The position numbers were made by a program, and so were the translations under genes. The notes beneath the pieces are model-generated. The model did not search any database, was not told where the DNA came from, and was given only the letters and a program-made list of their open reading frames with translations. A stretch of DNA of 64,000 bases from Chromatiales bacterium (ex Bugula neritina AB1) (GTDB lineage Bacteria; Pseudomonadota; Gammaproteobacteria; Granulosicoccales; Granulosicoccaceae): assembly GCA_001730015.1 (NCBI GenBank), contig MDLA01000125.1:47121-111120 (forward strand), given 5' to 3'. This document shows positions 23,222 through 56,043 of this stretch, in pieces (position 1 is the stretch's first letter; each line of letters begins with the position of its first letter).

Positions 23222-24324
23222 TCACCTCACTGTCCCGTGGTTTTCTGATCGCAGCGCTGCTCTATGGTGTCGTGATTTCGTGGCCGGCCCTAAGCGAGGG
23301 CGGCGTGAGCGGCTGGTGGGCAGCAGCCAGAGGGGTCGGCATTCTGCGCTATCTGTTCTGGCTGAGTGCAGTCATTGCTGTTGCAATGGCAGCGTCCTGG
23401 GTGTTCCGCGAACTGTTGCGCCGCACCATGCCCGAAATCATTGCCAAGCCCATGCGCCAGGCACCGTTGACTGCCGCCTTCGGTATCATGATCATTCTAG
23501 CCTATGTAATTGTTGCCGTCGGGGCTCCGGCTATAGCGCCGTTTGGCGAGGCCGAGATATTTGAGAAAATCAATGTGCTTCCGGGCGGTGATGCCGAGCT
23601 CGGTGGTGATCCCAACCACTTTCTCGGCACTGATCAAATCGGTCGCGATATTTTATCGCGGCTTATTTATGGCGCGCGCAATACCGTTGGCATTGCTTTT
23701 CTCACCACGGTGCTGTCATTTGTTATCGGTGTAACTCTCGGGTTTCTGGCGGCGACGCTGGGTGGCTGGGTCGATCAGTTCTTTTCGCGCTCTATCGATG
23801 TACTCATGGCGATCCCGCAACTGATTTTCGCGCTGCTGCTGATGACCATCGCCTCCGAGTGGGCCTACCGCTCCGGCATATCACTCACCTGGTTTATGAT
23901 CCTGATTATCGCGGTACTCGACTCCACACGCGTGTTCCGGCTGGCGCGTGCCGTCGGTTTGAATATCGTGGTAATGGACTACATCGAAGCGGCCAAAGTA
24001 CGCGGCGAAACCCTCGCACATATTGTATTCAGAGAAATACTGCCGAACGCCTTTGCACCGCTGCTTGCTGAATTCGGCCTGCGCTTCTGCTTTGTATTCC
24101 TCACCATTGCCTCGCTGAGCTTCCTCGGTATTGGTATCCAGCCGCCGCTGGCCGACTGGGGCACCATGGTTCGCGATCTCTCACAGTTTATCAATTTTGC
24201 CGTCTACGACCCGCTCACCGCCTCTTTGCCGCTGATGGCAGCAGGTGCGATTGCGCTGTTAACGGTTGCAGTTAACTTTGTGGTCGACTGGATGCTGCAA
24301 AATACCTCGGGTCTGAAAGAATGA
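23218..24324 (+). CDS. ABC transporter permease, DppC type (second system), N-terminally extended
   Basis: A 368-residue DppC-family permease. About 80 residues with two hydrophobic segments precede the usual core, which is absent from its paralogue at 3479. The core shows FLGTDQIGRDILSRLIYGAR and LSFLGIGIQPPLADWG. The contact loop is YIEAAKVRGETL with EILPNAFAPL. It starts in ATGA overlap with the DppB gene. The extension might be a fused small membrane protein. Confidence 0.9.
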   Translation: MITSLSRGFLIAALLYGVVISWPALSEGGVSGWWAAARGVGILRYLFWLSAVIAVAMAASWVFRELLRRTMPEIIAKPMRQAPLTAAFGIMIILAYVIVAVGAPAIAPFGEAEIFEKINVLPGGDAELGGDPNHFLGTDQIGRDILSRLIYGARNTVGIAFLTTVLSFVIGVTLGFLAATLGGWVDQFFSRSIDVLMAIPQLIFALLLMTIASEWAYRSGISLTWFMILIIAVLDSTRVFRLARAVGLNIVVMDYIEAAKVRGETLAHIVFREILPNAFAPLLAEFGLRFCFVFLTIASLSFLGIGIQPPLADWGTMVRDLSQFINFAVYDPLTASLPLMAAGAIALLTVAVNFVVDWMLQNTSGLKE

Positions 24325-24463
24325 TTATTCGGCCAGTGGCAGGCGAATTCTATAATCCCGTGTCCGCCTATATATGCGGCCGGCAGCTGCGCTGCACATG
24401 CAAATTCAGGCCAGTACAGACCAGAGCAGTACAAGTCAATTCAGTGCAAACCAGGGCAGCCCA

Positions 24464-26128
24464 ATGAGTGAATTGCTGGTAAAAATACGCAATTTGCACA
24501 TTGAAGGCCGTGCCGACGAACAGTGGCTGCCAATAATCAACGGAGTCGATCTCAACCTGCAGCGCGGCCGGGTTCTGGGCTTAATCGGTGAGAGCGGGGC
24601 GGGTAAGTCTACCCTTGGTCTCGCGGCAATGGGCTTTACCCGCGACGGCTGCCGCATCAGCGGTGGCAGCGTGGAGTTCGGCGGGGTCGATCTGCTCGCA
24701 CTAACGCGAACCCAGCGTCGCGCGCTGCTGGGAAAGCGCATTGCCTACGTGGCGCAATCGGCTGCAGCGTCGTTTAATCCGGCGCATAAAATCTTGAGCC
24801 AGCACACTGAAGCACCGGTATATCACGGCGTGATGACCCGCTCGGAAAGTGAAGCCGATGGCATGGAACTGTACCGTCGCCTGCGCCTCCCCGATCCGGA
24901 TCAAATCGGTTTTCGCTACCCGCATCAGGTATCGGGAGGCCAGTTACAGCGCGCGATGACAGCGATGGCCATGTCGTGCCGGCCAGATCTGATAATTTTC
25001 GACGAACCCACTACCGCGCTTGATGTCACCACGCAGATAGAAGTACTGGCGTCCATTCGAGAAATCGTTGAGCAGTTCGGTACAGCTGCCATCTATATAA
25101 CTCACGATCTCGCCGTGGTTGCGCAAATGGCAGACGATATAAAAGTGCTGTTGCGCGGTGACGAGGTCGAGCAGGCCGACACCCGAACCATGTTGTCGCA
25201 GCCGGTTGAAGACTATACAAAATCACTGTGGGCTGTGCGCAGCTTCCAGCGGCCGCAGAAACCACCAGTAGATGAGGCCGCTACCCCGGTGGTTAAAATA
25301 GATGGCATCACCGCTGCCTATGGCCGCTCGCTGGATGTTCTGCATAACGTAAGTTTCGATATACACCGTGGCCGCACTGTTGCCGTGGTGGGGGAGTCGG
25401 GTTCCGGCAAGTCTACCGTTGCGCGTAGTATCATGGGCTTGCTGCCGCCGCGCAACGGGCAGATAATATTCAATGGCGCGCCATTACCTGCAAGCTATAA
25501 AAAGCGTAGCAAAGAGCAGCTGCGGCAAGTGCAGATGATCTACCAGATGGCCGATACCGCACTGAACCCGAGAGTGCGTATCAAAGATATCATCGGTCGA
25601 CCGGTCGAATTTTACAGAGGGCTCAAAGGCAGGCAGAAAGAGCAGCGTGTCGCGCAATTGCTGGAGCAGATAGAGCTTGATCCCGCTCAGTATATGCAAC
25701 GCCGCCCCACAGAATTATCGGGCGGGCAGAAGCAGCGCATCGGAATAGCGCGGGCACTGGCAGCCGAGCCTGAATTTATCATTTGCGATGAAGTCACCTC
25801 CGCTCTGGATCAGCTGGTGGCCGAGGGAATTCTACGCTTGCTGGCACGGCTTCAGGATGAACTCGGGCTGGCCTATATGTTCATCACCCACGATCTCGCC
25901 ACCGTGCGCGCAATCGCAGACGAGGTCGTTGTGATGAAAGAAGGAGTTGTTGTCGAAGCCGGGCCGAAAGGCGACATGTTCACTCCGCCACATCACCCCT
26001 ATACCGATCTGCTGCTGAGCTCGGTTCCGGAAATGGATCCCGACTGGCTGACCCGGGTACTGGCAGATCGAGGGGTGGACAACATTGGAGATGCAGCGAT
26101 GGCCAAATTGGATAACAGGCACCGGTAG
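24464..26128 (+). CDS. Fused dipeptide-type ABC ATPase (second system)
   Basis: Two cassettes in one chain of 554 residues. Cassette 1 has GESGAGKST, VSGGQLQRAM and IIFDEPTTALD. Cassette 2 has [19 protein letters not shown] and IICDEVTSALD. It is paralogous to 4299-5942. The ORF track begins at 24374, but the first 30 residues are a low-complexity Gln/Ser run. ATG 24464 (MSELLVKIRNLHIE) matches the start of the other copy. It should power the two permeases before it. Confidence 0.9.
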   Translation: MSELLVKIRNLHIEGRADEQWLPIINGVDLNLQRGRVLGLIGESGAGKSTLGLAAMGFTRDGCRISGGSVEFGGVDLLALTRTQRRALLGKRIAYVAQSAAASFNPAHKILSQHTEAPVYHGVMTRSESEADGMELYRRLRLPDPDQIGFRYPHQVSGGQLQRAMTAMAMSCRPDLIIFDEPTTALDVTTQIEVLASIREIVEQFGTAAIYITHDLAVVAQMADDIKVLLRGDEVEQADTRTMLSQPVEDYTKSLWAVRSFQRPQKPPVDEAATPVVKIDGITAAYGRSLDVLHNVSFDIHRGRTVAVVGESGSGKSTVARSIMGLLPPRNGQIIFNGAPLPASYKKRSKEQLRQVQMIYQMADTALNPRVRIKDIIGRPVEFYRGLKGRQKEQRVAQLLEQIELDPAQYMQRRPTELSGGQKQRIGIARALAAEPEFIICDEVTSALDQLVAEGILRLLARLQDELGLAYMFITHDLATVRAIADEVVVMKEGVVVEAGPKGDMFTPPHHPYTDLLLSSVPEMDPDWLTRVLADRGVDNIGDAAMAKLDNRHR

Positions 26129-26232
26129 AGATATAGAATTTGAATGTCTGAATCAAACGTGCCAATGCACTTGCCTGGAGGCCGGAAGACCGGTCGATTA
26201 ACTTAACTTTGAAAAGCTGAGGATAACCCTAA

Positions 26233-27786
26233 ATGACTTACGAACTGAATCGCCGCGGATTTCTGCGGGCCGGAGTGGCAGCTGGTGTGATGGCCGCAAC
26301 CGGAAGCCGTATGACACCGGCGTTCGCCGCGCCCAAAATGGGCGGCACACTGCGCATGGGTATTGCCGGTGCCAATACATCAGACAGCTGGGATGGTCGA
26401 ACCCACTCCGACAGCTTCATGATCATGATGGGCCACGGCACGGTATTCGACTGCCTGACCGAAGTCGGCGCAGACGGTCAGCTCAAAGGCGAACTTGCCG
26501 AAAGCTGGGAGCCCAGTGCCGATGCTAAAACCTGGACATTCAATCTGCGCAAGGGTGTTACCTTCCACAACGGCAAGCCTTTCAACGCAGACGATGTTAT
26601 CGCCTCATTGAATCTGCATACCGCTGACGACGCGAAATCTGCGGCTAAGCCGATTGTTGCATCTATCGCCGAAATGAAAAAGATGAACGACCACCAGGTG
26701 CAGATGGTACTGAAAGCCGGCAACGCCGATTTTCCGTTCCTGCTGTCTGACTACCACATTGTGATTCATCCGGCCGATGGTATTGAAGAGTCAATTGCCA
26801 AAGGTATCGGTACCGGCGGCTACATGGTTGAAAACCATGATCCGGGTGTGCGCACTATTGTGAAAAAATACGGCAATCACTACAAGTCAGATGCCTGCTT
26901 TTTCGACAGCATAGAGCAAATCGCCATTAACGATTCCAGCGCCCGCATGAACGCGCTAATGACAGGCCAGGTCGATGCCATCAACCGGGTCGACTTTAAA
27001 ACCGAAATTTTGATGAAGCGCAACCCGAACATCAATATCTTTGAAGTCACCGGCAACCAGCACTTCACCTTCCCTATGCTGACCGGCGTAGAGCCGTTCA
27101 ACAACCCCGATGTCCGGCTGGCGCTGAAACTTGCGTTCAACCGGCAGGAACTCGTCGACAAGATACTGCAGGGGCACGGTGCCGTAGCCAACGATCACCC
27201 GATCGGGCCAGCCAACCAGTACTTCCACAAAGATCTGGCGCAGCGCGAATATGACCCCGAGCAAGCCAGGTCACTGCTGAAGAAAGCCGGAATGGAAGGG
27301 CTGACTGTAGATTTGTCGGCCGCTAACGCCGCCTTCCCGGGTGCCGTTGATGCCAGCCAGTTGCTGCAGGCGTCAGCAAAAGCCGCCGGTATCAATATCA
27401 AGCTCACACAAGAGCCCGATGATGGTTACTGGTCTAATGTGTGGCTTAAAAAGCCGTGGGTTGCCTGCTACTGGTCTGGCCGTGCAACTGAAGACTGGAT
27501 GTTCTCCACCGCCTATGAATCCGGTGTACCATGGAATGACACCGCCTGGGAAAATGCGCGCTTTCAGGAGCTGCTGCTGCTCGGCCGTGCAGAACTCGAT
27601 ACCGCTAAGCGCGAGGCGATATACCACGAAATGCAAGAGCTGTGTTCCAATGACGGCGCGACGGTTGTGCCCATGTATGCCAACTACGTTGATGCGCACT
27701 CGAAGAAGCTCACCAACAGCGGCACCATTGGTAACTCATGGCAGATGGATAGCTCGCGAATTGCCGAACGCTGGTGGTTTGCCTAG
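26233..27786 (+). CDS. ABC transporter periplasmic binding protein, family 5 (second system)
   Basis: A 517-residue DppA/OppA-family protein. NRRGFLRAGVAAGVMAATG is a twin-arginine signal, with likely cleavage near AFAA. WTFNLRKGVTFHNG and NDHPIG match the paralogue at 988. In this operon the binding protein comes last, before an intrinsic terminator, whereas in the first system it comes first. Several loops differ between the two, so ligands may differ. The downstream Rieske oxygenase hints at an oxidisable aromatic or amine ligand, but a terminator separates them. Confidence 0.9.
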   Translation: MTYELNRRGFLRAGVAAGVMAATGSRMTPAFAAPKMGGTLRMGIAGANTSDSWDGRTHSDSFMIMMGHGTVFDCLTEVGADGQLKGELAESWEPSADAKTWTFNLRKGVTFHNGKPFNADDVIASLNLHTADDAKSAAKPIVASIAEMKKMNDHQVQMVLKAGNADFPFLLSDYHIVIHPADGIEESIAKGIGTGGYMVENHDPGVRTIVKKYGNHYKSDACFFDSIEQIAINDSSARMNALMTGQVDAINRVDFKTEILMKRNPNINIFEVTGNQHFTFPMLTGVEPFNNPDVRLALKLAFNRQELVDKILQGHGAVANDHPIGPANQYFHKDLAQREYDPEQARSLLKKAGMEGLTVDLSAANAAFPGAVDASQLLQASAKAAGINIKLTQEPDDGYWSNVWLKKPWVACYWSGRATEDWMFSTAYESGVPWNDTAWENARFQELLLLGRAELDTAKREAIYHEMQELCSNDGATVVPMYANYVDAHSKKLTNSGTIGNSWQMDSSRIAERWWFA

Positions 27787-27822
27787 AAATTCCATGGCCT
27801 TAAACGCAGTAACCTGAAGTAA

Positions 27823-27852
27823 AAAAACGCCCTGTTCGCAGGGCGTTTTTCT
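27823..27852 (+). terminator. Rho-independent terminator with TTCG tetraloop
   Basis: AACGCCCTG-TTCG-CAGGGCGTT forms a strong GC-rich stem with a stable tetraloop, followed by TTTTTCTTTT. It ends the second dipeptide-type transporter operon, 37 bp after its last stop codon. The A-run on the other side could allow some activity on the minus strand. Confidence 0.9.
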
Positions 27853-27942
27853 TTTGTATTCCCGGTCTGGAAACCGCGACCGCTTTGCGCTTATGCCAGT
27901 GCTGATGCATGATAGTGAATCCGCATAACCATCCACGGCTTT

Positions 27943-29265
27943 ATGACTGAAGAAACACTGGTTCCGTACTCCGGCTACTTTCAACGAGACGTTCCCGCAG
28001 AAGACCCCGAGCTGACCCACGTCGGCCCCGGCACCGCCTGCGGCGAATACCTGCGTCGCTACTGGCAGCCGGTAGCCATGTCAAACGAGATCAAAGACCT
28101 GCCGGTTCCGGTGCGAATTCTCGGTGAAGACCTGGTGATTTTCCGCGATCAGTCCGGGCGGCTCGGTTTGCTGCACCGCCACTGTGCGCATCGCGGCGCA
28201 TCGCTCGAATACGGCATTATTATGGACTGCGGCATCAAGTGCTGTTACCACGGCTGGCATTTTGATATCGACGGCCGCTTGATCGATGCGCCGTCAGAAC
28301 CCATTGGCAGCCCGGTGCGCGACCGTGTAATTCAGGGAGCCTACCCGTTGCACGAGCACGACGGACTGGTATTCGCCTACATGGGGCCGCCCGAATTAAA
28401 ACCCGAATTCCCGATTTACGACACCATGTGCCTCGGCACGGCATCGAAAACATTTTCACTGAGCATGCCCGCCAACTGGTTGCAGGCGTATGAAAACACC
28501 CAAGACCCGATTCATGTTATTCATTTGCATGCGCTGTCGAGCGGCGTGCAGTTCGGCGCAGCATCCGGTGTAGAGCAGCTTATCGACTACCGCGACACCC
28601 CGCTCGGCATGATGAACATCCAGACCCGCCGCGTTGGCGAAATGCTGTGGACGCGCACCACCGATTCGATATTCCCCAACGGCAACCAGACCGGCGCCAT
28701 CTGGGAAGAGGCAGAAGGGAAAAAAATGTTTCAGCGGGTATCGATGCTGCGCTGGATGGTACCCATCGATAACACCAACACGCTCACCATTGGCTGGCGC
28801 TATTTCAGCGACCAGCTCGACCCGCGCGGCCAGGACGATCCATCAATCGTCGGCAAAGAAAGCATCGACTTTGTCGGCCAGACCGCCGGTCGCAGCTATG
28901 AAGAACGACAGCGCCAGCCCGGCGACTATGAAGTGCAAGTGTCACAACGGCCCATAGCTATTCATGCGCTCGAACACCGCGTAACCTCTGACCGCGGCGT
29001 CACACGGCTGCGGCGCTTGCTGCGCGAGCGCGTGCGCGCCCACCAGTCAACCGGAGAAGCGCCATTGCCGCGTCTGAATGAAGCCGGCCAGGTCGCCACC
29101 TATTGTCAGGACTCCGTATACCCGGTGGCGCCAGCCACAGACGATGATCAGCTCATGAAAAAATTCGGCAGTCGAATTGCCGATGCCGTGTTAGCAAGCG
29201 ACCGCCTGCAGCACGAGCAGCGCCCGGCTGAAATCGAAAAGATCTGCCAGAGCGAATTTTCGTGA
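27943..29265 (+). CDS. Rieske non-haem iron oxygenase, alpha subunit
   Basis: A 440-residue ring-hydroxylating-type oxygenase. The Rieske [2Fe-2S] motif is CAHRGASLEYG followed by CCYHGWHF. The mononuclear iron site is NTQDPIHVIHLH (D-x2-H-x3-H). Length and order fit the phthalate-4,5-dioxygenase/demethylase branch, which hydroxylates or demethylates small substrates using a separate reductase. No reductase gene is nearby. A terminator separates it from the transporter upstream and a 366-bp gap from lysW downstream, so its pathway is uncertain. Confidence 0.9.
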   Translation: MTEETLVPYSGYFQRDVPAEDPELTHVGPGTACGEYLRRYWQPVAMSNEIKDLPVPVRILGEDLVIFRDQSGRLGLLHRHCAHRGASLEYGIIMDCGIKCCYHGWHFDIDGRLIDAPSEPIGSPVRDRVIQGAYPLHEHDGLVFAYMGPPELKPEFPIYDTMCLGTASKTFSLSMPANWLQAYENTQDPIHVIHLHALSSGVQFGAASGVEQLIDYRDTPLGMMNIQTRRVGEMLWTRTTDSIFPNGNQTGAIWEEAEGKKMFQRVSMLRWMVPIDNTNTLTIGWRYFSDQLDPRGQDDPSIVGKESIDFVGQTAGRSYEERQRQPGDYEVQVSQRPIAIHALEHRVTSDRGVTRLRRLLRERVRAHQSTGEAPLPRLNEAGQVATYCQDSVYPVAPATDDDQLMKKFGSRIADAVLASDRLQHEQRPAEIEKICQSEFS

Positions 29266-29630: not shown

Positions 29631-29795
29631 ATGGCATCTTGTCCCGTATGTGACGCCGATGTAGAAACCGCAGACGACACTGTCGTCGGTGAACTGATGA
29701 CTTGCGACGATTGTGGTTGCGAACTTGAAGTATTATCACTTGATCCCGCCAGGCTCGGTGAAGCACCCGAAGCCGAGGAGGACTGGGGCGAGTGA
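29631..29795 (+). CDS. lysW: LysW-type amino-group carrier protein
   Basis: A 54-residue protein too short for the ORF track. It begins [12 protein letters not shown], has a second pair of cysteines (CDDCGC) for a zinc ribbon, is strongly acidic, and ends in EEDWGE, the hallmark C-terminus of LysW. In this family the gamma-carboxyl of the last Glu is joined to the alpha-amino group of the substrate, which then stays carrier-bound through the pathway. AGGAG lies before the ATG. Its stop overlaps the GTG of lysX (GTGA), so the two are co-translated. The acidic surface normally docks the basic faces of LysX, LysZ, LysY and LysJ. Confidence 0.95.
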
Positions 29796-30655
29796 GCGGC
29801 GCTGCAGCGGGCACGGGCCCGACCATCGGATTGCTGCATTCACTGATCCGCAAGGATGAAAAAATGCTGCTCGACGCCTTCAAGCGCTATGGCGTCAAGC
29901 CTGTGATGATCGACGATCGCAAGCTGATTATGGATTTCAACTCAGCGCCCGAGGTCGATGTATTACTGGAGCGCTCAATCAACCACTCACGCGCGCTGCA
30001 TGCACTGCGGTTGTTTGAAAGCGCCGGTATACGCTGCATTAATACGCACGATGTCGCGCGCGTCTGCGGCGATAAAATGCTCACCACCTGCGCCCTCACC
30101 GAACACAATGTACCGCAGCCGAGGAGCCGCGTCGCCTTCACTGAAGAATCGGCAGTCGAAGCGATAGAAGAGCTGGGCTACCCGGTTGTGCTAAAACCGG
30201 CGGTTGGCTCGTGGGGGCGGCTGTTGTCGAAAGTCAACGATCGCGATGCCGCTGAATCGATCCTCGAACACAAAACCGTGCTCGGCAGTTACCACCATTC
30301 TATTTTCTATATACAAGACTACGTAGAAAAAGCCGGTCGCGATATCCGCACCTTTGTTGTCGGCGATGAATGCATTGCCGCCATCTATCGAACCTCGGAA
30401 CACTGGATCACCAATACTGCGCGCGGCGCTGTGGCCAGCAAGTGCGACTTAACACCTGAAATAGCCGAAATATCGCTGAATGCAGCAGTGGCATGCGGTG
30501 GCGGCGTCGTGGCTGTCGACTTATTCGAAACCACTGAAGGCCTGCTGGTGAACGAAGTTAACTACACCATGGAATTTAAAAACAGCGTCGATACCACCGG
30601 CGTCGATATCCCCGGCAAAATTGTCGAATACGCTATTGCCGAGGCGGGCAGATGA
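29792..30655 (+). CDS. lysX: LysX-type ATP-grasp ligase, LysW-substrate ligase
   Basis: A 287-residue ATP-grasp ligase. [20 protein letters not shown], then [17 protein letters not shown], and NTARGA with [12 protein letters not shown] are characteristic of LysX/ArgX. It joins the C-terminal Glu of LysW to the amino group of an amino acid, alpha-aminoadipate for lysine or glutamate for arginine. I cannot tell which from sequence alone. It starts at GTG inside the lysW stop and overlaps lysY by four bases (ATGA). Confidence 0.92.
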
Positions 30656-31677
30656 TCAAAGTATCTATTGTTGGCGGTTCCGGCTACGCCGGAGGAGACC
30701 TGCTGCGGGTACTGCTGTTTCACCCGCAAGTTGAAATCGTACAGGTAACCTCTGAGCGCCACGCCGGTAAACTCGTAACCACCGTGCACCCGAATTTACG
30801 CAAACTCACCAAACTGAAGTTTGCAACCATAGACGAACTCGAACCGTGCGATGTATTGTTTCTGGGCCTGCCGCACGGCCATGTAATGAAACGCATTGGC
30901 GAATTCGAAGCACTGGCCGGCACACTTATAGACTTGTCAGCCGATTTCCGTCTCAACGACGCGGAACTCTATAAAAAATGGTACGGCAGCGAGCACGCCT
31001 GCCCGGAACGCCTGACAGACTTTGTCTACGGCATACCTGAGTTACACCGCGAAGAAATGAAAAGCGCGAAACGCATTGCCAGCGCCGGCTGCAATGCCAC
31101 TGCAACTATTCTGGCACTGCACCCGCTGTATAAAGCCGGGCTGGTGGAATCGGCTGTGGTTGAAGTAAAGGCTGGTTCCAGCCAGGGCGGCAATAGCGCA
31201 AGTGATGCCAGCCATCACCCCGAGCGCAGCGGTGCGGTTCGATCATACAAGCCAACCGGCCACCGGCACGTGGGCGAAATGCAGCAGGAACTCAACGCAG
31301 ACACTATTCATTTTTCGGCAACCTCTATAGAAATGGTGCGTGGCATTCTGGCAACCTGCCACGTGTTTCTAAATGAATCCCTGACCGAAAAAGATATCTG
31401 GAAGCTGTATCGCGGTGCTTATGGTCAGGAGCCTTTTATTCGCATAGTCAAAGAGCGCAGCGGTATTCACCGCTACCCCGAGCCCAAGCTGCTGGCCGGT
31501 GGAAACTATTGTGATATCGGCTTTGAGATCGACAACCACAGTAACCGACTGGTTGTGGTCAGCGCACTCGACAACCTGATGAAAGGTGCAGCAGGGCAGG
31601 CGGTGCAGGCGTTTAATATCGCCCACGGCTTCGATGAAACACTCGGGCTTGAATTTCCCGGCTTGCATCCGGTTTAG
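30652..31677 (+). CDS. lysY: LysY/ArgC-type LysW-acyl-phosphate reductase
   Basis: A 341-residue NADPH-dependent semialdehyde dehydrogenase of the ArgC family. [17 protein letters not shown] is the nucleotide-binding loop, and the catalytic cysteine is in [37 protein letters not shown], longer than in typical ArgC, matches the LysY branch. It reduces the carrier-bound acyl phosphate made by LysZ to a semialdehyde. It is co-translated with lysX. The reductase precedes the kinase here, with the amidohydrolase gene between them. Confidence 0.9.
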
Positions 31678-31786: not shown

Positions 31787-32437
31787 ATGTGCCGTATATT
31801 ACTGGTGCGTTCAGCCACACCGTTCAATCTAATTGACCACCTGCAACCATTTGCACAATTATCACAAGGCAGCCGTGAGTATCAGGGGCATGGCTGGGGC
31901 TGTTCCTGGTTGCCGCTTGCAAGTGAAGACGCAACAGGGTGGCAGCACTACCACTGTATTGATCCAATCTGGCAAGACAACCTTCAGCAGTTCGGCCGCA
32001 CCAGTTTATTGCTGGTGCACGCCCGCAGTGCTTTTCGTGATGAAGGGATTGTGGTGGAAAATAATATGCCCTTCACCGATGGCGAAAGCGTATTTATTTT
32101 CAATGGCGAATTGCGCGGTGTGAAAATAAAATCGGAAGGCCGGATCGGGGCTGAAAAAATCTATAATTATATTCGTCGAATGGATAAGGGCGACAAATGC
32201 CTGGCGTTGGAAAAGGCCGTATCGATTATCAATAAAAGAACCAGCTACGTGCGAGCAATGAATATAATTTTGTCCGACGGAAAATCGGCTCAGGTATCGT
32301 CCACCTACAATGAAGATCCGGACTACTTCCAGATGCATCGAAAATCGAGCAATGGCGTGGATATAATCTGCTCGCAGCAATATCCCGGTGAAACCGACTG
32401 GCAGAAAGTTAGTAATTTCCATACCGCCAACGTCTAA
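31787..32437 (+). CDS. YafJ/EgtC/DUG3-type class II amidohydrolase in LysW cluster
   Basis: A 216-residue Ntn-type glutamine amidotransferase domain standing alone. Cys2 (MCRILLV) is the expected nucleophile after Met removal. GHGWGCSWLP, LLVHARSAFRDEG, ENNMPFTDGE and FNGEL follow the YafJ/DUG3/EgtC pattern. No synthase domain is attached, so it is more likely an amidohydrolase than an ammonia donor. Relatives DUG3 and EgtC cleave gamma-glutamyl bonds. LysW links substrates through a gamma-glutamyl isopeptide bond, so this protein could release product in place of LysK. That last step is inference. It lies between lysY and lysZ, and GAGAGAG precedes the ATG. Confidence 0.8.
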   Translation: MCRILLVRSATPFNLIDHLQPFAQLSQGSREYQGHGWGCSWLPLASEDATGWQHYHCIDPIWQDNLQQFGRTSLLLVHARSAFRDEGIVVENNMPFTDGESVFIFNGELRGVKIKSEGRIGAEKIYNYIRRMDKGDKCLALEKAVSIINKRTSYVRAMNIILSDGKSAQVSSTYNEDPDYFQMHRKSSNGVDIICSQQYPGETDWQKVSNFHTANV

Positions 32438-32495: not shown

Positions 32496-33287
32496 GTGTA
32501 CATTATAAAAATAGGCGGCGGCGAAAAGATCAATATAGAAGGCATTGTGTCTGATCTGGCCGCCACAGAAAAACCCTTCATTATTGTGCATGGTGCCAAT
32601 GCGCTGCGTGATCAGATTGCCGAAAAAATGGGTATGCAAAAGCAGGTGTTAACCTCGGTTTCCGGCTACAGCAGCGTATTCTCCGATGAAAACGCCATAG
32701 ACGCTATCCTCATGAGCTATGCCGGAATCCGCAACAAGCGCATTGTCGAAGCCTGCCAGAAGCTCAATGTTAACGCCGTTGGCCTGTCAGGCATTGATGG
32801 CGGAATGGTGCAGGGCAAGCGCAACAAAGGAATTCGTGTACGCGAAAACGGCAAAACGCTTATCAAGCGTGATTTTTCCGGCAAACCGGTACAGATCAAT
32901 AGCGAATTGCTCTCATTGTTGCTCGACAATGGCTATAACCCGGTACTGTGCATTCCCATTGCCGATGAAAACGGCTTCGCCATCAACTCGGAAAACGACG
33001 ACATAGTCACCTGCCTGGCCGCCGCCACCAACCCGGAATGCATTTTCCAGTTTATCGAAGCCCCCGGCTTTATGGATGATCCGGCGGATGAATCATCGCT
33101 GGTAAAAACGCTTTCCGGTAGTGAGCTTGCAGCGCGCGAAGAGCAAGTCGAAGGCCGTATGAAGCGCAAGATGCTGGCGCTGCGTAAACTGTATGAGCAG
33201 GGCGGCGCGCGCGTAGTCATTGCCGATGGCCGGGTTGAGCACCCGCTGGCAGATGCTTTGTCCGGCGCGGGCACCGTAATCAGTTAA
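32496..33287 (+). CDS. lysZ: LysZ-type LysW-substrate kinase (amino acid kinase family)
   Basis: A 263-residue amino-acid kinase. IIKIGGGEKINIEG at the N-terminus and GLSGIDGGMVQGKRNK, PVQINSELLSLLLDNGY and INSENDDIVTCLAA match LysZ/ArgB of carrier-protein pathways. It phosphorylates the side-chain carboxyl of the carrier-bound substrate for LysY. The ORF track starts at 32388 inside the previous gene. GTG 32496 gives the family's usual N-terminus and has AAGGGA upstream. Confidence 0.9.
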   Translation: MYIIKIGGGEKINIEGIVSDLAATEKPFIIVHGANALRDQIAEKMGMQKQVLTSVSGYSSVFSDENAIDAILMSYAGIRNKRIVEACQKLNVNAVGLSGIDGGMVQGKRNKGIRVRENGKTLIKRDFSGKPVQINSELLSLLLDNGYNPVLCIPIADENGFAINSENDDIVTCLAAATNPECIFQFIEAPGFMDDPADESSLVKTLSGSELAAREEQVEGRMKRKMLALRKLYEQGGARVVIADGRVEHPLADALSGAGTVIS

Positions 33288-33485: not shown

Positions 33486-34646
33486 TTGAGCAATCCCGAT
33501 TACCAGGCACTCGAAAACACCTACGGTTTAACCCTCTACCCGAAACGCGATGCGGTACTGGTTCGCGGCAAAGGGGCACTGCTTTACGACGAGCACAACA
33601 ATGAATACATTGATTGTGCAGCGGGCATAGGAGTCGCGAATGTCGGCCACTGTCACCCGGATGTTGTCGCCGCCATTCAGAAGCAGGCAGGCGAGCTGAT
33701 GGTGGTACCCAATACTCTCTACAACGACAAACGCTCACAACTGCTGCAAAAGCTGGTACAGCTGTCGCCCGACAGCATTGAGCGGGCCTACCTGTGCAAC
33801 TCCGGCACCGAAGCCGTCGAAGCTGCACTGAAGTTTGCCCGCGTCTCCACCGGCCGCACCGAATACGTAACCGCCATGCGCGGCTTTCACGGTCGCACCA
33901 TGGGTGCCGTCAGCGCCACCTTCACCAAAAAATACCGCGATCCGTTTGCCCCGCTGGTGCCGGGTTTCAGCTACGTGCCGCTGAACAAAATAGATAAGCT
34001 CGATGCCGCTGTAACGGAAAAAACAGCAGCCGTAATGCTTGAGCTGGTACAAGGTGAAGGCGGAGTCAATCTCGCCGATCGCGCCTATATCGATGCCGTA
34101 AAGCGCATTTGCGATGAGCGTGGCGCGTTGTTAATTGTCGATGAAATCCAGACCGGCTTTTGCCGCACCGGGCGGTTTTTTGCCTGCGAGCACTTTGACC
34201 TGCAACCCGACATGATCACCGTCGCCAAGGCCATTGCCGCCGGTATCCCGATGGGCGCGACTCTGCTTGGGGAAAAAATCAAGGTAGAGCCGGGTATGCA
34301 CGGTACTACGTTTGGCGGCAATCCTATAGCCAGTGCTGCGGCGCTGGCGACACTTGGCGTAATGGAAAACGAAAACCTCGCCAGTCGCGCTGAAGAAATG
34401 GGCAGCTATCTGCAGGAGAAGCTTGCCGAGAAGCCAATGAGTCAGGTGCGATCAGTACGACGGTTGGGGTTGATGATCGGTTTAGAGCTGAAAGTGAAGG
34501 TACAGCCGGTGCTGGAGGAGTTGATGCGGCGGCGGGTGATAGCACTGCCAGCCGGCGCTACGGTATTGCGTATGCTACCACCGCTGGTTATTGATAAGTC
34601 GCAGATTGATCGGGTGGTTGAGCAACTGCATGAGTTGTTGGCGTAA
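33486..34646 (+). CDS. lysJ: LysJ/ArgD-type PLP aminotransferase
   Basis: A 386-residue class III aminotransferase starting at TTG (AAGG upstream). CAAGIGVANVGHCHPDVV, LCNSGTEAVEAALKFAR, GFHGRTMGAVSAT, VDEIQTGFCRTGRFFACE and the PLP lysine segment DMITVAKAIAAGIPMGA are all present. In LysW pathways it aminates the carrier-bound semialdehyde, giving LysW-lysine or LysW-ornithine. It lies 198 bp after lysZ and ends the cluster. The TIR gene starts only 28 bp later. Confidence 0.9.
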   Translation: MSNPDYQALENTYGLTLYPKRDAVLVRGKGALLYDEHNNEYIDCAAGIGVANVGHCHPDVVAAIQKQAGELMVVPNTLYNDKRSQLLQKLVQLSPDSIERAYLCNSGTEAVEAALKFARVSTGRTEYVTAMRGFHGRTMGAVSATFTKKYRDPFAPLVPGFSYVPLNKIDKLDAAVTEKTAAVMLELVQGEGGVNLADRAYIDAVKRICDERGALLIVDEIQTGFCRTGRFFACEHFDLQPDMITVAKAIAAGIPMGATLLGEKIKVEPGMHGTTFGGNPIASAAALATLGVMENENLASRAEEMGSYLQEKLAEKPMSQVRSVRRLGLMIGLELKVKVQPVLEELMRRRVIALPAGATVLRMLPPLVIDKSQIDRVVEQLHELLA

Positions 34647-34674: not shown

Positions 34675-36297
34675 GTGGCAGAGAAGGTTGCTAAAACTAA
34701 AATATGGGTCAGCTATAGTGGTCTGGCCAGTAGTAAGCTTTTAAACGACGTCGATACTTTTCTAGAGTCGACAGAGTGCGAATTAAAGCGGTTTGAGCGC
34801 TCGGTAGCGGCGGGTGCTAAGCGGAGCGAAAATTCGCTCGATGCTGCCTATAAAGACGACAAAGACTCGCCAGATCTTAACGGTGAAACGGTAAAGCAGT
34901 ATTACCTGAGCCCCGGCGAGTCGATCAATAGCCTGATTGTCACCATTGCCTATCAGTCACGGCTATTGTTTTGCTTGAGCGATGAGTATTTCCTCAGCCC
35001 GTATTGTCTGGCAGAGCTGGCTTGTAGTTTGTGTTTTACCGATTCACTCGGTTTTAGATTTATTGATCAGATGTCTGATCGCTACGATCTAAAAGAAATA
35101 CTGTTAGGGGAGCAGCTTGTTAAGTGTCAGGTACCGGGTGGTAAAGCGCGGAAAATGCGCTTAAACGAGGCCCTGGCGGAAACCATGAAAGCTCGCTATG
35201 AAGGTGATCAAAGTGATGTATCTACTGACGTTTCGTTTTTGATGGATGCAGAACAGTACGAAAAATTATTAGAAAAATTACCTGACAAGATATTCTGTGA
35301 GCCTGAAGCTGCGCTTGTTAAAGATACGATAGTTAATCTCGCCAGGGTGTGTTTTTTTTCTGGTACGCAATACGATTCGATCAATAATTTCAGTAACTGG
35401 ATTGAAAGCAACTCGATTGCGAGTAGAGTTTTCAATGCCGTCGATTGGAAAAAAAGTAACAATCTCTTCAGTGGTGCGGCGGCAAATGTTTATCTGGATT
35501 ACAAAACTGGGCGTTCAGATAACGCAGAAACCAGAGTTGACTTGATCGAGTTGCTGCAAGAATATAAATCGAACTCGGTTCAGCGACGCCAGCTGCCAGC
35601 TTGGGTTGATTTTATAAAAGTGCTGGCAGGGTTCGTTGCGCAGTCTCTCGTTAGTGAGCAATGGTTAAACTCGGTTGCTGCAGCTCCGGGCAGCGTAATA
35701 TTTATAGAAAGAAACGAGGGAAGTAGTAGCGGTTTTCAGGCGTGCATCGGTCATGCAGCACTGACCGGTAGTGGCGCAAAGCTGAAGCTTGATCGCCGGG
35801 TGCAGAAGCCGGTGTCTGAGTCTCTTGTCGATATAGGCGTTATGCCGGAATTTCCGCTCAAGCAGGGCCGGTCGTTTTCACGGCAGTTTGTTTGTGCGCT
35901 GTGGTCGAATTTGAGAAACCTGCCAATTGAAGAAATACCCGACTCAGATTCCGGTAACCCAACCGGGCTGGACCGGGAGCAACGTGGACTGCTGTGCTCG
36001 TGGATTCGAGAGCAGCAGCGCTTTCGTGGTGCTGGAGCCTGTGCACTATATCTTGACCTGAAGGATTATGAAATAAACGAGCAATGGGAGGGTAAGTTGA
36101 TGCAGGCACTGCGCGACTTGCGAGACAACGGTGCCCGTCGGCCACTACATGATTTGCGCATTAACACGCTGGTGGTACCGGTCGCAGCAGATCGAGCTAA
36201 TGTGCAGGTGCTAAAAGATGGTTCAGATTACTTTGACCGGTTTAACCTGGTGAACAAAATATTGGAGCTGGAATTCGATGACCCGCAAACAAATTAG
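34675..36297 (+). CDS. TIR-domain protein, candidate effector of a conflict system
   Basis: A 540-residue protein starting at GTG with AGGGAG upstream. Residues 8 to about 115 look like a TIR domain: KIWVSYSG is the first strand, and LLFCLSDEYFLSPYCLAELA is the S-x(n)-C-x2-EL region with the candidate catalytic Glu. Many bacterial TIR domains cleave NAD+. The remainder has no domain that I recognise, although the last 160 residues (CSWIREQQRFRGAG, DLRINTLVVPV) look like a compact fold. Its stop overlaps the MoxR gene by 20 bp, so it belongs with the MoxR/FGE/DGR genes rather than with lysJ. Confidence 0.65.
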   Translation: MAEKVAKTKIWVSYSGLASSKLLNDVDTFLESTECELKRFERSVAAGAKRSENSLDAAYKDDKDSPDLNGETVKQYYLSPGESINSLIVTIAYQSRLLFCLSDEYFLSPYCLAELACSLCFTDSLGFRFIDQMSDRYDLKEILLGEQLVKCQVPGGKARKMRLNEALAETMKARYEGDQSDVSTDVSFLMDAEQYEKLLEKLPDKIFCEPEAALVKDTIVNLARVCFFSGTQYDSINNFSNWIESNSIASRVFNAVDWKKSNNLFSGAAANVYLDYKTGRSDNAETRVDLIELLQEYKSNSVQRRQLPAWVDFIKVLAGFVAQSLVSEQWLNSVAAAPGSVIFIERNEGSSSGFQACIGHAALTGSGAKLKLDRRVQKPVSESLVDIGVMPEFPLKQGRSFSRQFVCALWSNLRNLPIEEIPDSDSGNPTGLDREQRGLLCSWIREQQRFRGAGACALYLDLKDYEINEQWEGKLMQALRDLRDNGARRPLHDLRINTLVVPVAADRANVQVLKDGSDYFDRFNLVNKILELEFDDPQTN

Positions 36298-37249
36298 TAA
36301 AACGCGCTCACGCTCATTGCCAGCAGAACTGCCAGAGTCTATCAAACTACCCCCCATCGGTAGCTGGCAGCACGACAGCGCCCACAGTTTTGACGATGAT
36401 CAACGCCACGCGATATCCGCTGCGTGGTACGCCGATCGACCGCTACTGGTCCGTGGTGAACCCGGTCTAGGAAAAAGCCAGATTGCACGTGCAATTGCCG
36501 CGAGTTGGCAATGGCGTTTGGTGACCACCGTTATTCATGGAAGAACTGAGGTCGATGATCTTCTCTATACCATCGATTATGTCGAACGTCTGGCCGACGC
36601 CAATGCCAGTGTGAAAGGCAAAATTGAGGTCAAGGATCTAGCGGACTACGTCAAGCACGGGCCGGTCTGGCAAGCACTGGATGGCGATAGCCAAAGTGGT
36701 TGGCCTGAAGGTGGCTATGGCAAAAAAAGAAAAGTTCAAGGCGAACCCGGCTGCATATTGTTACTCGATGAAATCGACAAAGCGCAAAGCGATGTACCCA
36801 ACGCATTGCTCGAAGTATTGAACAGCAAATCCTTTACTGTTCCACAAACCGGGCAGGTAGTATCGGCTGGTGCGCCGCTATTTATTGTAGTGACTGCCAA
36901 TGATCAACGCACGCTGCCCGCCGCCTTCATGCGCCGTTGCGCAGTGCTGGATCTGGATCTCGGTAGCGATGAAGCCGAGCGCTTTCGCCAGATTGCGCAA
37001 GCACACAGCGATGCAGAATTGCTGCAAGGGATCGATGCTGACACCATTGATGAAGTAGCCAAGTGCGTAGCGCAGTATCGGAAAAAAGTCCCCGAGGGAT
37101 ACTACCAACCCGGCACCTCCGAAATGCTCGACATACTGCACGTGATCGACCGCAGTGACAAACTGCCAGACGCCGATCTGGAAAAATGCTTAACCATTCT
37201 GTCGAAATTTCTGCTGAAAAAAGGCTTTCGTACCGACGAGGCTGATTGA
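36278..37249 (+). CDS. MoxR-type AAA+ ATPase
   Basis: A 323-residue AAA+ protein. Walker A is GEPGLGKS at residues 60-67, Walker B is ILLLDEIDKA near 160, and sensor 1 is FIVVTANDQRTLP near 205. HGRTEVDDLLYTIDY after Walker A fits the MoxR/AAA_5 group. MoxR ATPases usually act with a von Willebrand-type partner. Here the likely partner is the next gene, whose ATG overlaps this stop as TGATG. The RRCAVLDLDL segment is the arginine-finger region. Confidence 0.88.
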   Translation: MTRKQISKTRSRSLPAELPESIKLPPIGSWQHDSAHSFDDDQRHAISAAWYADRPLLVRGEPGLGKSQIARAIAASWQWRLVTTVIHGRTEVDDLLYTIDYVERLADANASVKGKIEVKDLADYVKHGPVWQALDGDSQSGWPEGGYGKKRKVQGEPGCILLLDEIDKAQSDVPNALLEVLNSKSFTVPQTGQVVSAGAPLFIVVTANDQRTLPAAFMRRCAVLDLDLGSDEAERFRQIAQAHSDAELLQGIDADTIDEVAKCVAQYRKKVPEGYYQPGTSEMLDILHVIDRSDKLPDADLEKCLTILSKFLLKKGFRTDEAD

Positions 37250-39864
37250 TGCTGGCTGATCTGCTACAGGAGATTCTAGATTCAGAGTCAGAGCAGTCAC
37301 TGCTCGCTCGCGCCAATGCATTAGGATTAGAGCTGGCGCCCGGCCAGCGATTAGCGAGTGAGCCGGAAGAATCGGGCGGCAGTGAAACCCGGCCACCGCC
37401 ACCCACTATAGAACCACCGCAGGTTGGTGAATCAGGCGAATTCAGTTTCAATATTGCGCGCATAGTCAATCGCCAACAGCTTGTTGTACACGATACAGAA
37501 TCTGCATTGTCCGGCTATCAGGCGCTAGACCCGGAATCACCGCAAGTACAGCAAGACAATCGACCCATTCGCTGCCGCGCGGAACCACTGCTGGATCAAC
37601 GCCGTCTGCAACTGGCTCTGGAGCAATCACTGGTTGCCAGTCACAGCGGCAACCGACTCGATGCCAAGCGCCTGTCGCAGCGTTTGGCGCGACAGGAGTC
37701 GCCCGCTCCGCTGCCCAGGCGTGAGTATCCAGCACCTCGTAGTCTGAGCCTGGTATTAATTGACGAGTGCCAGCCGCTGTTGTCAGATCAGTTGGCGTTG
37801 TGCCATATGTTGCAAGCCCTGCCAGCTGCAATCCGTCCCGAACTGATCGCCAGAGCCATACACCATCCGCAGACTGGCTGGCTGTCTGGCAATCACAAAG
37901 ATCTGCCCGTGTATCTATTGCAGAGACACTACGCTGCGGCTGGTGGTGCGGTGCTGATTGTAGGTGATCCAGCTAATCCCGGTGTTGTGCTGCTCTCACT
38001 ACTGGCCCGGTTGCAGTTGCGTATTTCGGATTGTTTATGGTTAAGCCCGGTCGCACACCCGTTGGCAATTCTGTGGGATCTGCCAGCCACCAGCCGCGCC
38101 AAGGATAACGCGCTAGTCTGGCTGCTTGCGTTACTGGCTTCTTGCCCGGTCATTACTTCCTATATGGTGCGTCGGCTGCGGCGCTTGCTTGGTGCAGGAA
38201 TGGAGGTGGAATTAGCGTTCTATGCTCACAATTCGGTGCAATGGTATGAGTCAGCCAATTGGGGCCGGGTGGTTGAACAGCGCCTGGAATATTCCGAGAA
38301 ATTAAAACAGTTTGCGCAGCAGCACCCGCAACGTATGGATCGGTGCATTGATGAGTTGTGGAAGTCAATAGAGGATCATCCTCGCTTTTACCGATTGGAA
38401 GCGAGCATTGCATGGCGAAACGCCGCCGTTGAATGGGCAGGGCAGCCACACATAGCAGACGATATAGAGGCGCTCGATGAGTATCTCGGGCAGATCGGCA
38501 AGTCACTGCAAACGGGTGCTATAGGTGGTATTGAATATGCCAGCTGTATTTTGCAATTGTCTGCGCGCAATAAAGACAGCACCGAATACCCGGAACTTTT
38601 ACACAGCGTTGTGCAACTCGCTCAGCGGCAATGGCTGGAGTACTATCCCGACTCGATGCCAATGGAAGGTAGCAACCCCACGGCCGGCCAGCAGAACCCG
38701 GTTGCAGCGCAGTTGTTTTTTGACGGGCACAAACTGCTTCTCGACGATCCGGCTAGCCATAAAGGGGTGGTGCTCTGTGATCTATTAGTCGCTCCGGCAG
38801 GGTTGGTCATTGAAATTAACAATGCTCGGGCGGTGCTGTCTCATGGGGAGAGCTTGCAGGTGGATGCCGCTCAAAAAATTGCCGTGTTTGATGCAGAGCA
38901 CCGTATCGATATTGAAATTCTAGATGAAACTGAATTATGTTGGGCCAGCGCGGTGGATCAACGCACAGCGGCTCAAGTGTTTGCTACCGCTGATGGCGAT
39001 ATTCTCGACAATACTATAGAAGGTTTGAGGGTTCGGCAAGAGGGTCAGCTGCCATCCGATTCCCAACTGCAGATCGATGAATACGGACTCAGTAACGAAG
39101 TTGTATTGTTCGGTGTGCCGCTGCGTTTTCGCTATATCCCACCGGGTGATTTTGTTTTGGGATCTCCCGAAGATGAACCAGAGCGCGAAGACAACGAACA
39201 GCAGCACACCGTCTCTCTAACCAATGGATTTTGGCTGGCTGATACCGCTTGTTCACAGCGCTTGTGGCAAGCGGTAACCGGGAAAAACCCGAGTCATTTT
39301 AAGGGCGATGACTTGCCTGTCGAGCAGATCAGTTGGGAAGATGTGCAAGGATTCTGCGAACGGCTCAACGCCAATAGGGCAGCCAGCGGATTGCCATACC
39401 GTTTGCCGACAGAAGCAGAGTGGGAATACGCCTGTCGCGCCGGAACGCAAACCGTTTTTAGTTGGGGGAATGAATTAAGTGTGGAGCTTGCTAATTACAA
39501 TGGCCATTACCCCTATAACGATGGTGAAAAGGGAATATTCCGTCAGAGAACGGTCGATGTTCGAACCTTTGATGCTAACCCCTGGGGGCTATACCAAATG
39601 CATGGCAACGTTTATGAGTGGTGTCAGGATTTCTATGGCGACTATCCTGAAGGCGATGTCATTGATCCTAAGGGTGCCGATGCCGGCGATGATCGTGTGC
39701 TGCGCGGCGGCAGTTGGATCGGCAGCGGCGGGAGGCTTCGCTCTGCTAACCGTGACGCCAACGCGCCCGGCGACCGTAACTTCCACATTGGCTTTCGTCT
39801 TGCCCAGTCCGCGCGACCTGAAAGCAAGCCAGCAAAAAAAGAAAAACGAGCCAGCCGCAGATGA
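37249..39864 (+). CDS. SAV_2336-like/FGE-sulfatase fusion, DGR target 1
   Basis: An 871-residue protein in two parts. Residues about 160-320 include SLSLVLIDECQPLLSDQLA and GGAVLIVGDPANPG, which recall the degenerate vWA-like N-terminal region of SAV_2336-type proteins that accompany MoxR ATPases. MIDAS residues are not preserved. This part is a tentative match. From about 620 to the end it is a formylglycine-generating-enzyme (FGE/SUMF1) domain with C-type lectin fold (YIPPGDFVLGSPEDEPERE, LPTEAEWEYACRAG, NPWGLYQMHGNVYEW). VR1 covers residues 812-853 near the C-terminus. I use ATG 37249, in TGATG overlap with moxR, not the TTG at 37246. Confidence 0.85.
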   Translation: MLADLLQEILDSESEQSLLARANALGLELAPGQRLASEPEESGGSETRPPPPTIEPPQVGESGEFSFNIARIVNRQQLVVHDTESALSGYQALDPESPQVQQDNRPIRCRAEPLLDQRRLQLALEQSLVASHSGNRLDAKRLSQRLARQESPAPLPRREYPAPRSLSLVLIDECQPLLSDQLALCHMLQALPAAIRPELIARAIHHPQTGWLSGNHKDLPVYLLQRHYAAAGGAVLIVGDPANPGVVLLSLLARLQLRISDCLWLSPVAHPLAILWDLPATSRAKDNALVWLLALLASCPVITSYMVRRLRRLLGAGMEVELAFYAHNSVQWYESANWGRVVEQRLEYSEKLKQFAQQHPQRMDRCIDELWKSIEDHPRFYRLEASIAWRNAAVEWAGQPHIADDIEALDEYLGQIGKSLQTGAIGGIEYASCILQLSARNKDSTEYPELLHSVVQLAQRQWLEYYPDSMPMEGSNPTAGQQNPVAAQLFFDGHKLLLDDPASHKGVVLCDLLVAPAGLVIEINNARAVLSHGESLQVDAAQKIAVFDAEHRIDIEILDETELCWASAVDQRTAAQVFATADGDILDNTIEGLRVRQEGQLPSDSQLQIDEYGLSNEVVLFGVPLRFRYIPPGDFVLGSPEDEPEREDNEQQHTVSLTNGFWLADTACSQRLWQAVTGKNPSHFKGDDLPVEQISWEDVQGFCERLNANRAASGLPYRLPTEAEWEYACRAGTQTVFSWGNELSVELANYNGHYPYNDGEKGIFRQRTVDVRTFDANPWGLYQMHGNVYEWCQDFYGDYPEGDVIDPKGADAGDDRVLRGGSWIGSGGRLRSANRDANAPGDRNFHIGFRLAQSARPESKPAKKEKRASRR
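39682..39807 (+). repeat. DGR variable repeat 1 (VR1)
   Basis: Aligned over 126 bp with the TR at 41469-41594 there are no gaps and 13 substitutions, every one at a TR adenine. Examples are AAC to GGC, AAC to TTC, CTA to CTT and GAC to GGC. None of the 96 non-adenine TR positions differs. Codons changed are mostly surface AAC positions of the lectin-like fold. Weaker similarity continues about 12 bp to the left. The invariant 3' stretch ATTGGCTTTCGTCTTGCC is the likely homing-initiation end. Confidence 0.97.
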
Positions 39865-39901
39865 CCGCCAATGCGCAGCATCAGCGGGCATCAGCGGCTG
39901 G
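39851..39901 (+). other. Hairpin 43 bp after VR1, candidate DGR homing structure
   Basis: CCAGCCGC-A-GATG-A-CCGC pairs with GCGG-G-CATC-A-GCGGCTGG around a 15-base loop. It includes the stop codon of target 1. A similar hairpin with the shared segment CCGCCAAT follows VR2. In the Bordetella phage DGR a hairpin just past the VR promotes homing. The loop here is much larger than that one. Confidence 0.75.
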
Positions 39902-39955
39902 CGTAACGCGACCCCTTTCTAATGTGGTGCCGACCATTTGGAGCAGACTACAGCG

Positions 39956-40447
39956 ATGAGCAAGAGCCAATACCGCAGTTTTTTCCTCGCAGCCAATGAT
40001 GATGGCGCAGCCAGCGAAGCGCTGAATCGATTTATTCGCAGTCACGTTATATTGAGTGTGGAGCGGGAATATTGCGCTGCGCCGGTTCCGGGTTGGGCGT
40101 TTTGCGTTGTTTTTGAAGCGTCGAAAACAGCCGATGCTCCAGAGTCGAAAAATACTGGCAAAGGAAAGGTCGACTATCGAGCACTATTATCGGCCGATCT
40201 TCAGTTGGTGTTTGATCGCATGCGCGACGTACGGGCGGAGTTAGCTGATGCGGAAGGCAAGAAACGTTATCACGTGCTGACCGATGCTCATTTGTATGCG
40301 CTGCTGCAGCAATCTGTAACGACAGTAGCTGAATTAAAAAATGTCACCAAAATCAACGACGATCGGGCTAAGAAGTACGCAGAGCCGTTCCTCGTGGTCC
40401 TGCGTGAATTGCACCAATCTACACAGACGGCAGCACCGCCCGAATGA
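39956..40447 (+). CDS. HRDC-domain DGR accessory protein
   Basis: A 163-residue protein. Residues about 80-155 (FDRMRDVRAELADAEGKKRY, LTDAHLYALLQQSVTTVAEL, then DDRAKKYAEPFLVVLREL) match the HRDC nucleic-acid-binding helical domain known from RecQ and RNase D. HRDC proteins are one of the recurrent DGR accessory types, used where the Avd protein is absent, and no Avd gene is seen here. The start at ATG 39956 is preferred over the TTG at 39938. It overlaps the reverse transcriptase gene by ATGA, so they are co-translated. Confidence 0.85.
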   Translation: MSKSQYRSFFLAANDDGAASEALNRFIRSHVILSVEREYCAAPVPGWAFCVVFEASKTADAPESKNTGKGKVDYRALLSADLQLVFDRMRDVRAELADAEGKKRYHVLTDAHLYALLQQSVTTVAELKNVTKINDDRAKKYAEPFLVVLRELHQSTQTAAPPE

Positions 40448-41427: not shown

Positions 41428-41468
41428 TGGCAATGTGCGGCACAATAGCAATCGGGACAAGTGCACAA

Positions 41469-41594
41469 GCAGGCGATAATCGTGTGCTGCGCGGCGGCAG
41501 TTGGATCAACAACGGCAGGAGGCTACGCTCTGCTAACCGTAACGCCAACACGCCCGACAACCGTAACAACCACATTGGCTTTCGTCTTGCCCAG
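41469..41594 (+). repeat. DGR template repeat (TR)
   Basis: A 126-bp core between the RT gene and target 2, with 30 adenines, many in AAC codons in the frame of the targets (N at codons 4, 14, 15, 23, 25, 27, 31, 33, 34). It is the donor for both VRs. Its 3' flank (CAGCTCCACG) differs from the VR flanks (CAGTCCGCGC), as expected for TR versus VR ends. It has no hairpin at the VR-like distance. The local ORF in the track (41424-41705) reflects its origin from a target gene and is probably not translated. Confidence 0.96.
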
Positions 41595-41697
41595 CTCCAC
41601 GTGGCGTGCATTGGACAAGTCTTGCGGACCAGCGCTTGTTCCTGCCAGTGTCCAGGTTTCTTTCTAGAGATACTGGCGAAAACCAGAGGTGCGGGCT

Positions 41698-53500: not shown

Positions 53501-53515
53501 ACGGGAGCGAACAAA

Positions 53516-54451: not shown

Positions 54452-54483
54452 AGATTCTTCGAATGGGTGTTTGCCCTGGAGCT

Positions 54484-56028: not shown

Positions 56029-56043
56029 AGACGGAGAAAAACA

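Follow-up and report, generated by a model that had tools for sequence, protein, structure and literature searches.

The LysW (AmCP) pathway to lysine or ornithine makes use of a carrier protein, a ligase, a kinase, a reductase and an aminotransferase, encoded in the order W-X-Y-Z-J, and of the M20 metallopeptidase LysK for release of the product. For Gemmatimonadota, ornithine synthesis by a LysW-L-glutamate route has been reported in a genome-based survey (PMC11651109). Gamma-glutamyl bonds are also cut by class II enzymes in other pathways, i.e., by EgtC, the ergothioneine amidohydrolase, which acts on a gamma-glutamyl amide, and by Dug2p-Dug3p, which acts on that of glutathione and is also able to pass the gamma-glutamyl group on (PMC6508711). 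In the Pup system a protein ending in Gln or Glu becomes attached to an amine via the gamma-carboxyl of this last residue. The Pup gene of some actinobacteria specifies a terminal Gln (PupQ), which is deamidated by Dop, and this one enzyme also cleaves the Pup isopeptide, whereby Pup is removed from proteins (PMC8599861).

In the window, by which we mean the whole stretch of 64,000 nucleotides analyzed here, the genes for carrier, ligase, reductase, kinase and aminotransferase are all found in the order known from the LysW pathway, whereas LysK is absent and an Ntn cysteine amidohydrolase, to which LysK is non-homologous, is encoded between lysY and lysZ (Table 1). We use the label GAT, coined in the present analysis, for this protein.

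The lysW operon and the fold of GAT

The cluster in the window reads lysW-X-Y-GAT-Z-J, and LysW, LysX, LysY, LysZ, and LysJ all score above their family cut-offs. The tail of LysW is located directly at the stop codon and is the same as in the solved LysW/ArgW, i.e., it has the C-terminal Glu and the EDWGE motif. The GTG given for lysZ in Table 1 is the probable start; a longer reading from a GTG at 32388, chosen by the ORF tool, would overlap the GAT gene, and most lysZ homologs are 263 aa long. The preliminary description had stated that the cluster is without LysK, and this can be extended to the genome as a whole, in which the best score against TIGR01902 was 64 bits with a cut-off of 163.

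Table 1. Positions of the lysW operon and of other features in the window.
Feature	Position	Strand	Description
lysW, amino-group carrier protein	29631..29795	+	TIGR01206 65.3 bits (cut-off 53.2), Pfam Zn_ribbon_LysW; C-terminus EEDWGE
lysX, ATP-grasp ligase loading amino acid onto LysW	29792..30655	+	TIGR02144 348 bits (cut-off 275.6); best PDB matches 3vpd, 1uc8
lysY (ArgC-like), carrier-bound acyl-phosphate reductase	30652..31677	+	TIGR01850 400.5 bits (cut-off 233.6)
GAT (proposed LysW-product release enzyme)	31787..32437	+	Stand-alone class II Ntn amidohydrolase; Cys2 nucleophile, Arg80, Asn106-Gly107, Gly121 at class II Asp place
lysZ, carrier-bound amino acid kinase	32496..33287	+	NF010659 [LysW]-aminoadipate kinase 236.6 bits (cut-off 223)
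lysJ, carrier-bound aminotransferase	33486..34646	+	TIGR00707 433.7 bits (cut-off 410); best match LysJ_Th_th
Dipeptide-type ABC transporter set, first	961-8593		Followed by MttB-family methyltransferase
Dipeptide-type ABC transporter set, second	22223-29265		Directly upstream of lysW
Rieske protein, with second transporter set	27943-29265
TIR-like protein and MoxR-like AAA ATPase	34675-37249		Between lysJ and retroelement targets
Diversity-generating retroelement	37246-42663		Directly downstream of operon
Retroelement target proteins (two)	37246-39864; 41689-42663		FGE-sulfatase fold
Retroelement accessory	39938-40447		HRDC domain
Retroelement reverse transcriptase	40444-41427
Retroelement template repeat	41450-41616
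Retroelement variable repeats	39663-39829; 42492-42658
Tandem repeat, perfect, 27 nt	42411-42518		Asp-Pro-Val-Gly-Pro-Leu-Ala-Gly-Asp
Sulfur-oxidation (sox-like) looking cluster	51889-62501		Several c-type cytochromes; from translations only

The GAT open reading frame encodes 216 aa with the N-terminus Met-Cys-Arg. A family profile of 18 members had the class II GATase 3mdn and EgtC (4zfj-4zfl) as its top matches in the PDB, and the AlphaFold model made from the alignment of this profile (pLDDT 85, pTM 0.86) gave EgtC 4zfj/4zfk/4zfl as the best folds in Foldseek (TM 0.78, probability 1.00). The matches of the model, i.e., EgtC, 3mdn, 1te5, GlmS, and PurF, place GAT within the Ntn fold. A stand-alone class II domain with Cys2 between lysY and lysZ, as first described, is therefore confirmed by the ORF, the fold and the flanking family matches, and the EgtC-like pattern holds as well, EgtC being the best model fold and, with 3mdn, the top PDB match of the family profile.

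The similarity to EgtC does not amount to membership, as the EgtC model TIGR03442 matched GAT weakly (39.1 bits, E 5e-10), i.e., below its equivalog score of 218.65. Besides the fold, GAT shares with EgtC the Cys2, the arginine of the VRSA/ARSA motif, and the N-P-F and N-G motifs, but the Asp of the D/TDSE motif is changed to Gly and the loop between FNGEL and GRIGAE is ~16 residues shorter than in the aligned EgtCs. The context is also different, GAT being surrounded by LysW genes and not by egtB/egtD, and EgtB/EgtD-like neighbors, judged by eye from translations, were seen at three EgtC loci encountered incidentally (L030-L032). Similarly, GAT is a stand-alone class II domain like the DUG3/YafJ-type hydrolases, but its substrate site is altered and the window GAT stays under the Pfam GATase cut-offs, GATase_6 being below its gathering score. 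No Dug2-like gene recurred in the GAT module among the neighborhoods compared.

The window holds several features outside of the operon. Of the 44 mismatches between the repeats of the retroelement, 20-21, i.e., nearly half, are at template adenines, and the other listed mismatches are near the two repeat ends. In the gene for the second target protein, the perfect 27-nt tandem repeat immediately precedes the variable repeat. The protein encoded downstream of lysJ was judged TIR-like in its N-terminus by eye and has no Pfam match; together with the MoxR-like ATPase it is possibly part of a conflict system that is linked to the retroelement.

Distribution of GAT and LysK

GAT was found in 54 genomes of Gammaproteobacteria, "Deltaproteobacteria" and Gemmatimonadota, and was linked to LysW genes in 53 of these; in the remaining genome (G543) it is located on another contig than lysWXY and is still present. 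It occurs in ~12% of the sampled Gemmatimonadota and is scattered in Proteobacteria, and no relative was found in the plasmid collection searched. In a single scan of GTDB genomes, 17 relatives with 43-79% identity were recovered, which come from Granulosicoccaceae, other Gammaproteobacteria, "Deltaproteobacteria"/Thermodesulfobacteriota, and Gemmatimonadota. The gene follows lysY in the LysW operon in 17/17 of these relatives, and the order is lysW-X-Y-GAT-Z-J where contigs allow (the loci L008, L012, and L024 end at contig ends); at L010, lysZ and lysJ are not adjacent to the GAT locus. Because the gene order after lysY is shared by all 17 relatives, and because dN is 0.14 and dS saturated between the window GAT and its closest sampled relative, the GAT gene is not the result of chance.

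The genes flanking the module differ by lineage. The second dipeptide ABC transporter set with the Rieske protein was found only in the window and at L008, the Gemmatimonadota flanks hold SecA and a nucleotide adenylyltransferase or pitrilysin-like gene, and those of the Thermodesulfobacteriota group NrfD-like and MoeB-like genes. As the flanks are unrelated between lineages, the six genes constitute a closed module. The flanking genes were also considered as a clue to the product, and were dropped since they are not conserved across lineages. A different arrangement was observed in three Gemmatimonadota (G609, G648, and G547; loci L042, L043, and L044), where an ORF of double length, apparently a lysZ-lysJ fusion, is found in the place of lysJ and there is no separate lysZ. 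Both GAT and LysX are divergent in these genomes, and GAT is still located between lysY and the double-length lysJ.

The presence of LysK was defined by the TIGR01902 cut-off (163 bits), and this model was shown to work in control genomes. No LysK above the cut-off was found in any of the 54 GAT genomes, including the window genome and the genomes of the 17 relatives. Among 298 Gemmatimonadota sampled, LysX was found in 38, of which 35 carry GAT and no LysK; in the remaining three, G398, G581, and G654, LysK is present and GAT is not. The operon of these three reads W-X-Y-Z-J-K and contains no GAT; LysK scores 285-330 bits and its gene is ~4 kb away from that of LysX. For G398, which was the one tested, LysK was found to match 5xoy, a [LysW]-lysine hydrolase of solved structure. 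Of 369 Gammaproteobacteria, five have LysX, and GAT was found in exactly these five. The mutual exclusion of lysK and GAT in LysW clusters, which the preliminary description had proposed as a check, is thus as predicted. The chance of the LysX/GAT co-occurrence is 1 in C(369,5), i.e., ~2e-11, a naive figure before relatedness is considered, and that of the GAT/LysK exclusion in Gemmatimonadota is 1/8436, also a naive figure. On the LysX tree, GAT and LysK are separated by a single change, so that the exclusion holds without exception but does not consist of independent trials; a reading of it as many independent events was rejected for this reason. It could reflect two old operon lineages. Rooting of the LysX tree with Thermus and archaeal LysX was attempted, gave long branches, and was not trusted.

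Active site and the proposed release reaction

Loading, phosphorylation, reduction and transamination are covered by the other five genes of the module, so that release is the missing step and GAT the remaining gene. It is therefore likely that GAT serves as the LysW-product release enzyme in place of LysK, and that the operon encodes a novel form of the LysW pathway, in which release is left to an enzyme of another fold.

The active site is well conserved. Cys2 is present in 53/53 complete GAT proteins, and 54/54 keep the class II Arg for the alpha-carboxylate (Arg80), the Asn-Gly oxyanion hole (Asn106-Gly107), and the N-x-P-F motif. In simulations of a PurF-type class II enzyme, the corresponding Arg binds the substrate carboxylate (PMC7953260). 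Position 121 is Gly in 54/54 GAT proteins, whereas EgtC and 3mdn have Asp there. This Asp belongs to the TDSE motif of class II enzymes, and in GlmS and PurF it binds the alpha-amine of glutamine. The combination of a retained Arg and a lost Asp fits a protein C-terminal gamma-glutamyl residue, the alpha-carboxylate of which is free while the alpha-nitrogen is engaged in a peptide bond. The site would thus appear to favor a C-terminal gamma-glutamyl substrate, e.g., loaded LysW, over free glutamine. The basic residues 124, 151, and 156 are conserved in 54/54 GAT proteins and not in the EgtCs compared, and enzymes acting on such carriers bind the acidic protein electrostatically (PMC9303977).

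In the proposed reaction, LysX would form an amide between the amino group of an acidic amino acid and the gamma-carboxyl of the last Glu of LysW, and LysZ, LysY, and LysJ would then phosphorylate, reduce and transaminate the carrier-bound substrate. Cys2 of GAT, which becomes N-terminal once Met is removed, would attack the gamma-glutamyl amide of loaded LysW, whereby a LysW-gamma-glutamyl thioester would form and the basic amino acid depart; hydrolysis of the thioester would regenerate LysW. The original suggestion of an Ntn-type enzyme that replaces LysK in release is supported by the exclusion pattern and by the site with its retained Arg and Asp-to-Gly change. No paper linking LysW to a release enzyme of amidotransferase fold was found in the mostly open-access literature covered.

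The alternative offered at the outset was that GAT is a glutaminase which provides ammonia for amidation of the carrier-bound substrate. GAT does belong within the class II glutamine amidotransferase superfamily, but the six-gene module holds no synthetase or other amidating partner, the aminotransferase LysJ needs no free ammonia, and it is precisely the Asp for the alpha-amine of free glutamine that has become Gly throughout the family. As EgtC, to which the fold is closest, is a hydrolase, and as the release step would be left without an enzyme, a role in ammonia supply is highly improbable. The loss of the same Asp bears on the possibility that GAT acts downstream on a free gamma-glutamyl metabolite and not on the carrier. 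This would be in line with EgtC and DUG3, the substrates of which are small gamma-glutamyl compounds, but no member retains the residue that would hold the alpha-amine of a free gamma-glutamyl group, the module is not accompanied by genes for the synthesis or use of such a metabolite, and the co-occurrence with LysX is strict; we find such an activity very unlikely.

Gln-ended LysW and the product of the module

In seven GAT-operon loci LysW ends in EDWGQ directly before the stop, the last codon being CAA or CAG. These fall into three lineages, i.e., L016; G378 and G282; and G504, G492, G426, and G516 (loci L016, L036, L040, L041, L047, L050, and L051), and on the LysX tree the Glu/Gln end differs by three changes. 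A Gln-ended LysW is without a gamma-carboxylate for LysX and would therefore need deamidation before loading. By analogy, a class II enzyme that accepts a C-terminal Gln would deamidate LysW via the same acyl-enzyme. It is conceivable, although we put this forward only tentatively, that GAT is dual-function, i.e., an Ntn counterpart of Dop that deamidates Gln-ended LysW and, once the amino acid is complete, cuts it off at this very gamma-glutamyl position, and that LysW was thereby free to change its last residue between Glu and Gln on at least three occasions. The likeness to Dop is one of analogy only, as Dop has a glutamine-synthetase fold and needs ATP/Pi whereas GAT has the Ntn fold. The counts do not establish that Gln ends are exclusive to GAT operons, as they were found in 7/51 GAT operons and 0/7 of the M20 type, all seven of which end in Glu (Fisher p = 0.58). 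In NF041070, the model for archaeal LysW, Gln is scored nearly as well as Glu, so Gln ends may exist elsewhere.

The Gln-ended carriers could also be explained if GAT were mainly a maturase or repair enzyme, which deamidates the C-terminal Gln or strips misloaded LysW, and if release of the product were left to an M20 peptidase not linked to the operon. Such a division of labor is suggested by the occurrence of Gln ends in three lineages and by the precedent of Dop, where PupQ deamidation and Pup isopeptide cleavage are carried out by one enzyme (PMC8599861). Other M20 peptidases (M20 paralogs) do occur in GAT genomes and one of these might release the product. However, most GAT operons encode a Glu-ended LysW and yet all retain GAT, no M20 peptidase of LysK grade was found in any GAT genome, and the LysK operons do without GAT. 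A function confined mainly to maturation or repair is therefore unlikely, and release by GAT is the reading that we retain.

The gene content of the Gemmatimonadota bears on what is released. ArgJ was found in 125 of 298 genomes overall and in 0/35 of those with GAT (hypergeometric 1e-9, relatedness ignored), and it is present in 2/3 of the LysX genomes with LysK. A canonical ornithine transcarbamylase (OTC) was over the cut-off in 32/35 and lysA (diaminopimelate decarboxylase) in 33/35 of the GAT-bearing genomes, and six Gemmatimonadota genomes were checked for ArgC, the single strong one in each being the LysY of the operon. Taken together, the lack of ArgJ, the presence of OTC and lysA, and the single ArgC indicate that the module is likely an ornithine route in Gemmatimonadota and that lysine is made via the DAP route; the product is thus probably ornithine for arginine. 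This cannot be carried over to the proteobacterial hosts because the ArgJ/ArgC route is also present there; those searched, including the window organism, have ArgJ or ArgJ fragments together with a second ArgC. The LysX motif EF[K/R]NS of the GAT operons resembles that of Thermus LysX and not Sulfolobus ArgX (FKGF), and does not point to glutamate. The same motif is found in LysX of the three LysK operons, and in haloarchaea the LysX motif alone did not set specificity (PMC10433800). In four of the genomes with Gln-ended LysW (G426, G492, G516, and G504; loci L036, L037, L040, L041, and L047) a divergent OTC-like gene was observed beside an M20 gene. These genomes perhaps have an acetylcitrulline-type arginine route, in which case the LysW module may make something else there.

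If GAT is indeed the release enzyme, the LysW pathway has undergone, at its last step, a non-homologous swap from an M20 metalloenzyme to an Ntn cysteine hydrolase, and a function is assigned to a protein family that has stayed under the Pfam and NCBIfam cut-offs. For the class II fold this suggests a substrate rule, in which loss of the Asp for the alpha-amine goes along with gain of a protein tail, and the Gln-ended LysW variants tie the LysW and Pup carriers together through one chemical trick. In most LysX genomes sampled, the LysW-ornithine operon of the Gemmatimonadota survey carries GAT and is without LysK, and GAT would fill an apparent gap in reconstructions of the LysW pathway such as the one in that survey (PMC11651109).
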